In this document: piece by piece, positions 13,193 to 26,630 of the stretch
Layout: each line of letters opens with the position of its first letter
Position numbering within the stretch: position 1 is the stretch's first letter
Assembly (NCBI RefSeq): GCF_000483485.1
Contig: NZ_KI519609.1
Location: 1,269,460 to 1,333,459, forward strand
Origin: Thiomicrorhabdus chilensis DSM 12352
Lineage (GTDB): Bacteria > Pseudomonadota > Gammaproteobacteria > Thiomicrospirales > Thiomicrospiraceae
DNA: 64,000 nucleotides
Direction of reading: 5' to 3'
Translations under genes and position numbers: made by a program
The notes under the pieces: generated by a model
What the model saw: the letters and a program-made list of their open reading frames with translations, nothing else
The model's database searches: none
Told to the model about the DNA's origin: nothing

Positions 13193-13307
13193 ACTTTGAA
13201 TCCGTTCTTTTCTCTAATGTATCTTTGTTAGCATATAAAAGCTATATGACATTCATTTGAAGATTGCCCATCCCTTTGGTTTTTGGGTATCATAGCCCGA
13301 AATGTAC

Positions 13308-13501
13308 TTAATGAGAACTTTGCACGAGTGGGGCGCGAAAGAAAAATGAGGAAAAAATTGGCTGGTTGAGGCGGAAAACGCAGCTAATAGCTGGCTATTA
13401 GCAAGTTGTGGCCCAACGGAAGTGCCCTTGGGGTACAACAAAAATCAGACGATTTTTAACCATTTTTATTCGTGCAACCATCTCGTGCAAAGCTCTCTTA
13501 A
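13308..13501. repeat. Inverted-repeat element, MITE-like or structured RNA
   Basis: Perfect 11-bp inverted repeats CTTTGCACGAG (13318-13328) and CTCGTGCAAAG (13482-13492) bound a 175-bp unit. With one gap and one mismatch the repeats extend to TTAA at both edges (13308-13311, 13498-13501), giving about 20-bp ends. Inside are a perfect 9-bp dyad (13383-13391 with 13394-13402), a CCCAA/TTGGG hairpin (13412-13416 with 13428-13432) and AAAAATC/GATTTTT (13440-13446 with 13451-13457). A TTG-initiated 62-codon frame on the minus strand (13441-13253) spans most of it without a good ribosome site. There is no transposase, so it would be non-autonomous. The TTAA edges could be target duplications or part of the repeats. 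Confidence 0.6.
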
Positions 13502-13513
13502 TAAAGGATAGAT

Positions 13514-14584
13514 ATGAACAACACAACGGGTGAATCCATGTCACTTGGTTCGGTGATGATTGACATTCAAGGCACGGAACTTCAGCCAGATGAAAAAGAA
13601 CGACTGCTTGACCCGAAAGTGGCGGGCGTTATTTTATTCACCCGTAATTTCGAATCCATTGAACAGTTGCAATCTTTGACGGCCTCTATCCATGCATTGA
13701 GGCATCCTCGCTTGTTGATAGCGGTTGATCATGAAGGAGGGCGGGTGCAGCGCTTTAGGGACGGGTTCACACGCCTTCCGCCAATGCGTACTCTGGGGCA
13801 ATTGCACGCCAAGGATGCCAAACACAGTTTTGCTGTTGCAGAAAAAATTGGCTGGTTGCTTGCCAGCGAACTGCTTTCAGTTGGCGTGGATTTTAGTTTT
13901 GCTCCGGTTGTAGACCTTGATTATGGTGGCAGTAAAGTGATTGGGGACCGTGCTTTTGCGATGAACCCGGTGACCGTCGGACAACTCGCTTTTCATTTGA
14001 TGACCGGGATGCGTAAAGCTGGGATGGCATCGGTGGCCAAACATTTTCCGGGGCATGGTTTTATCGAAGCCGATACCCATACCGAGATAGCCGTCGATGA
14101 ACGCCCGTTTGCGGAAATTCAACAAAAAGACATACAGCCGTTTTTAAGTCTGATTGAAAACGGGGTGGATGCGGTCATGCCGGCGCATGTGATTTATTCA
14201 AAAGTGGATGCGCTACCGGCAGGCTTTTCTACTCATTGGTTGCAGACGGTATTGCGCTCACAATGTCATTTTGAAGGTGCCATTATCAGCGACGATATGA
14301 GCATGCAGGCCGCAGCCGAATTTGGTCCGCCTGCTGAACGTGTCTTGAAGGCGCTTCAGGCTGGTTGCGACTTGGTGTTGGTATGCAACGATCCTCTGGC
14401 GGCCGATGAAGTATTGTCTAAACTGAATTGGCATGCCGGACCGCTTTCTCATGCGCGTTTGATTCGTTTGCATGCACACGACAAAATCGCGTATTCCAAG
14501 TTGCCTTATCATCCTTTATGGCAGGCTGCCGTCACCGAAATCAACCTTCTAAACCAATTAAACGATCAGCAGGAGTTAATTTAA
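13514..14584 (+). CDS. nagZ: Beta-N-acetylhexosaminidase NagZ
   Basis: A 356-residue family 3 glycoside hydrolase of the NagZ type. It removes GlcNAc from GlcNAc-anhydroMurNAc-peptides in the cytoplasm during peptidoglycan recycling. Motifs in order are MIDIQG, GVILFTRNF, IAVDHEGGRVQRF, the KHFPGHGFIEADTHTE loop that holds the catalytic Asp/His pair, and the nucleophile region IISDDMSM. ATG 13514 is preceded by AAAGGA; ATG 13538 is an alternative. It ends one base before the MscS gene start and is probably co-transcribed with it. An 18-base stretch of its coding sequence (13841-13858) recurs exactly in the upstream element. Confidence 0.95.
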   Translation: MNNTTGESMSLGSVMIDIQGTELQPDEKERLLDPKVAGVILFTRNFESIEQLQSLTASIHALRHPRLLIAVDHEGGRVQRFRDGFTRLPPMRTLGQLHAKDAKHSFAVAEKIGWLLASELLSVGVDFSFAPVVDLDYGGSKVIGDRAFAMNPVTVGQLAFHLMTGMRKAGMASVAKHFPGHGFIEADTHTEIAVDERPFAEIQQKDIQPFLSLIENGVDAVMPAHVIYSKVDALPAGFSTHWLQTVLRSQCHFEGAIISDDMSMQAAAEFGPPAERVLKALQAGCDLVLVCNDPLAADEVLSKLNWHAGPLSHARLIRLHAHDKIAYSKLPYHPLWQAAVTEINLLNQLNDQQELI

Positions 14585-26481: not shown

Positions 26482-26537
26482 TGCCGCGCCTTTCGAATGA
26501 GAGGAATTCTAACAGAAAATCCGCACGTTTACCGAGA

Positions 26538-26592
26538 CATAAAACGGGGTGCTGGAAAACCTTTACTTAAGGTGTTTCGAGTTCGTTTTATG
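26538..26592 (+). promoter_or_regulatory. Structured rpsB leader, candidate S2 autoregulatory site
   Basis: CATAAAACG (26538-26546) pairs perfectly with CGTTTTATG (26584-26592). The inner part forms ACCTT/AAGGT (26559-26563 with 26569-26573). The element ends 38 bases before the rpsB start. E. coli rpsB has a structured leader through which S2 represses its own operon; the position here agrees, while sequence homology is not established. Confidence 0.55.
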
Positions 26593-26630
26593 GGTGAACG
26601 GAGGCCTAACCCCAAATTGGAGAAAAAATC

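Follow-up and report, generated by a model that had tools for sequence, protein, structure and literature searches.

The window, a stretch of 64,000 nucleotides of the Thiomicrorhabdus chilensis DSM 12352 genome, contains an intact host nagZ gene coding for a beta-N-acetylhexosaminidase, in whose leader lies a foldback element flanked by a probable promoter on one side and the nagZ ribosome-binding site on the other (Table 1). In the nearest relatives the nagZ leader is uninterrupted and aligns across the insertion point, providing an empty site, and the -10 region of the probable promoter is discernible in relatives without the element. An earlier note on the letters of this DNA had delimited an inverted-repeat element at 13308-13501; the element is real, but this span wrongly included the target-site duplications, and the MITE proper occupies the 185 bp at 13313-13497, in a plus orientation set by its conserved core. 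The TTAA seen at both edges in that note proved to be part of an exact 5-bp target duplication, TTAAT, its matched ends with 11 perfect base pairs correspond to terminal repeats that match at 15 of 16 positions (11 perfect), and its perfect dyad is the apical hairpin of the core. This core is made up of two internal loops, AGGC/AAC and GCA/AA, followed by the apical hairpin, and is split in the window copy by an extra 25-bp hairpin. An open minus-strand frame of 62 codons, suspected from the outset to be incidental, was rejected as a gene because no frame stays open across most other copies. Two further Rfam matches were observed elsewhere in the window, namely a c-di-GMP-I riboswitch at 1891-1968 on the minus strand (58 bits) and a t44 RNA at 26504-26610 on the plus strand (50 bits).

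Table 1. Coordinates of the MITE, its parts and the surrounding nagZ features in the window
Feature	Position	Strand	Basis or remark
Probable native nagZ promoter, TTGCCC-18-TATCAT	13264-13293	+	9/12 match; 5' of insertion
Left target-site duplication, TTAAT	13308-13312		Exact 5-bp direct repeat
MITE	13313-13497	+	BLAST copies, target duplications, covariance model matches
Left terminal inverted repeat, GAGAACTTTGCACGAG	13313-13328	+	Sequence and end pattern
Conserved core, TTGAGGC...GCAGCTAATAGC..GCTATTAGCAAG...CAAC	13366-13441	+	Alignments, consensus fold
Apical hairpin of core, GCTAATAG-CTGG-CTATTAGC	13383-13402	+	Fold
Extra 25-bp hairpin (GTGGCCCAACGGAAGTGCCCTTGGG)	13408-13432	+	Divides 185-bp from 160-bp subfamily
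Right terminal inverted repeat, CTCGTGCAAAGCTCTC (GAGAGCTTTGCACGAG read on the minus strand)	13482-13497	-	Sequence and end pattern
Right target-site duplication, TTAAT	13498-13502		Exact 5-bp direct repeat
nagZ ribosome-binding site, AAAGGA	13503-13508	+	Sequence; directly outside element
nagZ, beta-N-acetylhexosaminidase, intact host gene	13514-14584	+	NF003740, 455 bits (cut-off 207)

BLAST searches of the window genome recovered 11 matches to the element, as did the covariance model (11 full-length places), and further copies were obtained from its relatives. The end pattern in this genome occurs as pairs of ends about 160, 185 and 205 bp apart, along with two miniatures of 27-33 bp (positions 397740 and 2109674 of G000; L073 and L087), which are barely more than two joined ends; one of the two is flanked by a 5-bp duplication, and they result from palindrome-mediated deletion or else are mobile at that length. 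Within the genus 24 of 32 genomes are carriers, the richest relative having about 200 left and about 200 right ends and another about 75. Exact 5-bp duplications flank 141 of the 234 collected copies, and at most one mismatch separates the duplicated flanks in 189, as against a mean of 3.4 and a maximum of 10 exact duplications when the flanks were re-paired at random in 500 trials. The duplications are A+T-rich with no fixed motif. Copies range from 158 to 185 bp in length, conserve no reading frame and are intergenic in 117 of 118 cases in one set and 54 of 54 in another; a search for the window element on plasmids or phages gave no match. Insertions in the nagZ leader itself are found in three of the 32 genomes, that of the window and two others in which the element has independently settled a few bases upstream of nagZ. 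These latter two lie at 1326-1484 of L166 and 1315-1475 of L171, with a second copy nearby (178-299 of L166).

The many copies, 16-bp terminal repeats, 5-bp duplications and empty sites, together with the insertion sequence described below, whose ends are the same, establish that the window feature is a MITE, i.e. a short element without genes of its own, served by a transposase from elsewhere and inserted in the nagZ leader. The MITE reading of the earlier note is thereby upheld. It had been offered there as an alternative to a folded RNA, an opposition which dissolves, since the RNA option merges with the MITE through the covariation and one-strand folding described below; the accompanying rule, that many copies would indicate a MITE and a single conserved copy an RNA, fails here.

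Sister genomes contain IS5-family insertion sequences of ~1.25 kb (about 1,250 bp) with the ends GAGACCTTTGCACGA(G/A), whose transposase of 326-328 aa is recovered by the NCBIfam IS5_4 equivalog with 260 bits (cut-off 140). Three copies in the sister-genus genome G060, with one GAGACCTTTGCACGAG end, are bordered by the exact 5-bp duplications AATAA, AAGAT and AAGCT, and those in G014 and G023 show no clear duplication; terminal repeats and duplication length are the same as those of the MITE. Queries with PF01609, with PF05598 and with the protein itself found no intact IS5 transposase of this type in the window genome G000, and none of the MITE-rich genomes G000, G001, G003, G012 and G024 yielded a DUF772 (PF05598) transposase. 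One of these, the sister genome G001, retains a decayed 5' piece of the insertion sequence, with a perfect end spaced correctly relative to the start of the gene. Because the IS5-family elements of sister genomes share both the ends and the 5-bp duplications, we infer that an IS5-type transposase probably moves the MITE in trans. The likeness between the two is confined to the outer ~16 bp, and the core and interior of the MITE are absent from the insertion sequence; hence, an origin of the MITE by internal deletion of the insertion sequence is unsupported. MITEs with GAGACCTTTGCACGA ends and other interiors, mostly with 5-bp duplications, were also observed in Zhongshania and in the uncultured proteobacterium LinL3_bin-0713 (L241, L251, L287, L235; L230, L272, L286). 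Those of LinL3_bin-0713 contain ATTCCCGC..GCGGGAAT repeats, which presumably resemble Neisseria dRS3.

The folding of the window copy far exceeds chance, with an MFE of -87.2 kcal/mol on the plus strand (z = -10) and -73.5 kcal/mol on the minus strand (z = -9.2). Compensatory changes run along the entire hairpin, the result of the covariance analysis that had been suggested as a check. In a narrow set of 30 representatives from the genus and Thiotrichaceae MAGs, 26 of the 60 predicted pairs show double changes, totalling 115 double-change cells as against 31.7 in shuffled controls and no more than 21 in slid ones. A wide set (alignment A3, with a mean column identity of 66%) shows double changes in 54 of 63 pairs, a covariation score of 0.664 (0.223 shuffled, 0.09-0.124 slid) and 365 double-change cells (126 shuffled, 40-81 slid). 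Folding is more stable on the plus strand in 132 of 133 copies, with the strand call of the covariance model and the fold being not fully independent of each other, and in 22 of 22 members of a set near-identical to that of A3; the consensus energy is -72.6 kcal/mol on the plus strand vs -28.6 on the minus strand. With pairs picked in a strand-neutral manner, by Watson-Crick counts only, G.U exceeds A.C in 37 pairs of the narrow set and the reverse holds in 9, and the wide set has a weaker excess (26 vs 11 pairs, p = 0.02), the copies being related and the counts accordingly not strictly independent. Changes common to several copies, which are the older ones, comprise 29 G.U types vs 7 A.C types, whereas rare and recent changes are nearly balanced (33 vs 30). 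A mutational C-to-T asymmetry was considered as the source of the G.U excess and rejected, as unpaired columns and rare changes are free of such a bias. Since the older changes favor G.U and the recent ones do not, these data suggest that selection acts on the multiplying copies for single-strand folding. This strand is most likely RNA; the assignment stays putative because single-stranded DNA also tolerates G.T better than A.C. Relative to neighboring genes the copies display no sense preference (46 sense vs 57 antisense, p = 0.32), nor do they show one relative to GC skew, taken as an indicator of the replication strand, and no internal promoter was identified in the element. With copy orientation unbiased to both gene sense and GC skew, selection through host transcripts fits poorly, and the absent gene-orientation bias speaks against a simple function within host mRNAs.

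The same core recurs far beyond the genus with other ends. A covariance model derived from the copies of the genus and Thiotrichaceae (R1), which scores the window copy at 120 bits on the plus strand and 54.5 on the minus strand, was run on 143 Gammaproteobacteria genomes, sampled evenly across the class and each from another family, and matched 25 of them at full length; several of the 25 contain ten or more copies, and the interiors of the elements thus found are alignable. A second model (R2), built from 24 of the sequences found with R1 and scoring the window copy at 82 bits on plus and 37 on minus, matched 49 of 299 Pseudomonadota genomes, many of them within one family of another class. 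In a scan of other loci totalling 221 kb there were two matches, each showing the core motif, and the model appears specific. Named carriers include Cupriavidus megaplasmids, and a search on plasmids for the forms at L400, L404, L477 and L478 found none. The best-conserved bases are the unpaired AGGC and AAC of one internal loop, GCA and AA of the next, and the apical AATAGC..GCTATT. Together, these sequences make up a superfamily, spread over many Pseudomonadota, of foldback elements of ~160 bp that have both the fold and the unpaired bases of a ~65-nt core in common.

The outer stem, comprising the terminal repeats, is wholly different between groups, and about ten end types can be told apart. 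The type GAGACCTTTGCACGAG is associated with 5-bp duplications, and GGAACCTCTGATTAATTC and GGAAGCTCTGAATAAG with 4-bp duplications of the CTAG, TTAA, TTAG and CTAA type; further types are GGAAGGTGCGAACAAG, GTGGTGTTTCGC, TGGACTGTAACAG, GTCGACTGAGATT, GTCCTGTCTCGCC, AGAAGGTGTGAG and AGTCCACTGAATC, the rarer ones being represented by one or few copies each, without clear duplications. We take GGAAGGTGCGAACAAG to resemble the end of IS5 itself. The Zhongshania elements have GAGACC ends, yet the core model does not match them, and as ends thus occur without the core and the core with other ends, the two are separable. GAGACC and GGAACC ends resemble each other and that of G158 looks intermediate, the other ends being without visible likeness; the ends may have been swapped or may have drifted, and both fit.

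Smaller hairpins were also observed in and around these MITEs. A separate dispersed family of 26-37 bp, AAACGAAGAACTYG-(variable stem-loop)-CRAGAA, is present in 17 of the 32 genus genomes, with 46 members in G012 and none in the window's genome (loci L015, L035, L135, L137, L307, L311, L328-L357); reversed-pattern controls gave one match in all. Because these hairpins occur outside MITEs as well as inside them, where they occupy three different positions and face either way, they look mobile on their own, and uninterrupted MITE copies suggest that they insert at AA. RAYT (Y1) transposases were considered as the source of the CGAAGAACT hairpins and rejected, none being found near the hairpins. 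Other hairpins of 16-28 bp with CCC..GGG stems occupy fixed positions in the MITEs, the same ones being mirrored on both arms (L082, L024, L213, L255, L003, L016, L266, L060); among the loci collected they are almost exclusively inside MITEs.

Based on these observations, we consider it highly probable that the element is, taken as a whole, a MITE with IS5-type mobilisation, belonging to a superfamily with a strand-selected fold. A more specific proposal, somewhat less likely than not, is that of a mobile structured-RNA module: a strand-specific core of ~65 nt would have spread through Pseudomonadota inside ~160-bp foldback elements, with outer stems exchanged or remodelled for different IS5-type (perhaps also other) transposases, such that the RNA core is the selected unit and the ends are replaceable. 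At the present locus, insertion into the nagZ leader duplicated the 5 bp TTAAT. On the broader reading, an IS5-type transposase would cut and join at the 16-bp ends, the folding strand would be RNA from read-through transcription of the flanks, in this case the nagZ leader RNA, and multiplying copies would be selected for strand folding, with inserted copies decaying neutrally. The core might allow the element to be tolerated where spacers are transcribed, or might bind a host or transposition factor. As for nagZ, its sense RNA would carry a stable fold that leaves the ribosome-binding site free, and its mRNA would gain a 185-nt hairpin near the 5' end, with a possible effect on stability or translation.

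It is possible, if unlikely, that the element is an ordinary MITE with a functionless interior, whose arm symmetry arises through end recognition by the transposase and arm-to-arm copying (template switching). The copy family, ends and duplications are typical of a common MITE, and the presence of similar small inserted hairpins at mirrored sites on the two arms suggests copying between them. However, such copying gives Watson-Crick pairs and not a G.U excess on one strand, unpaired asymmetric bases (AGGC, AAC, GCA/AA) are kept across groups with unrelated ends, and the covarying pairs are 60-80 bp away from the ends, distant from the transposase site. It is likewise rather unlikely that the relevant form is a single-stranded DNA hairpin, seen by a recombinase or transposase in the manner of attC or REP hairpins. 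An imperfect strand-specific hairpin that keeps its unpaired bases, the tolerance of DNA hairpins for G.T and an orientation unbiased towards transcription would all agree with it, whereas the clean short duplications and terminal repeats like those of DDE insertion sequences indicate double-strand transposition, and the survey of Y1 transposase loci revealed no partner of the single-strand transposase or integrase type. Finally, the strong fold and its placement downstream of the promoter and ahead of the ribosome-binding site would suit a riboswitch or attenuator that is conserved at the locus and regulates nagZ in cis as an RNA in its own right. This reading is very improbable and already at odds with the empty sites of the closest relatives; most of the 32 genomes lack the element in the nagZ leader, the same sequence precedes unrelated genes, and no Rfam family exceeded its gathering score. 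Co-option after insertion is possible.

The MITE described here has parallels among known elements. ERIC/IRU, Correia (NEMIS) and similar MITEs of gamma- and betaproteobacteria are intergenic foldback elements of 100-160 bp, which are often transcribed within mRNAs. They are in general terms alike as small intergenic foldback MITEs and differ in ends and core, as judged by their descriptions; to our knowledge, these do not mention a core that is conserved while the ends are interchangeable. REP/REPIN sequences with their RAYT transposases are likewise mobile palindromes in which folding matters, but they are short and Y1-moved, unlike the present elements, whose ends are of IS5 type and whose duplications are 5 bp or YTAR. 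The integron attC site is a strand-specific imperfect hairpin with conserved unpaired bases, found in cassette arrays and recombining with IntI; the element resembles it in the hairpin and differs in that no context of cassette arrays or IntI was seen. QMITE1 and QMITE2 of Coxiella burnetii are gammaproteobacterial MITEs present in transcripts, some giving small RNAs, and QMITE2 has a nested palindrome, but, compared by description, they differ in their duplications of 2-4 or 7-11 bp and in size (PMC5896051). The MITEs of Thiomargarita differ in having 10-bp direct repeats or TATAG ends (PMC4853749). The IS5-family insertion sequences ISPg1/ISPg9 and the MITE BrickBuilt, both of Porphyromonas gingivalis, share with our elements the terminal inverted repeat GAGACCTTTGCA, an IS5-family partner, duplications of 4-5 bp, an intergenic location and long predicted stem-loops (PMC4596501). 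BrickBuilt differs as a Bacteroidota element of 23-nt tandem repeats for which a shared core is not reported and BLASTn gave no match outside P. gingivalis (PMC4596501). Searches of open PMC full text with the end and core strings returned this P. gingivalis paper as the only relevant one among the hits, and an earlier description of some members is possible. In Rfam, too, no family corresponds to the core. As far as we found, the conserved strand-biased core common to MITEs with unrelated ends is new, the element as a MITE being of a known kind.

MITEs are usually viewed as deletion leftovers of insertion sequences, with an irrelevant interior. Here the interior is conserved over many bacterial families while the ends change, and it shows base-pair covariation together with a preference for one strand that is missing from recent mutations. 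Should the core act as RNA, then small transposons carry a selected RNA, one that is unnamed as far as we found and that the covariance model can now detect in any genome. If it instead acts as a DNA hairpin, then a DDE-type MITE depends on single-strand folding. On either reading, it becomes possible to test why the MITEs of bacteria take the form of hairpins.
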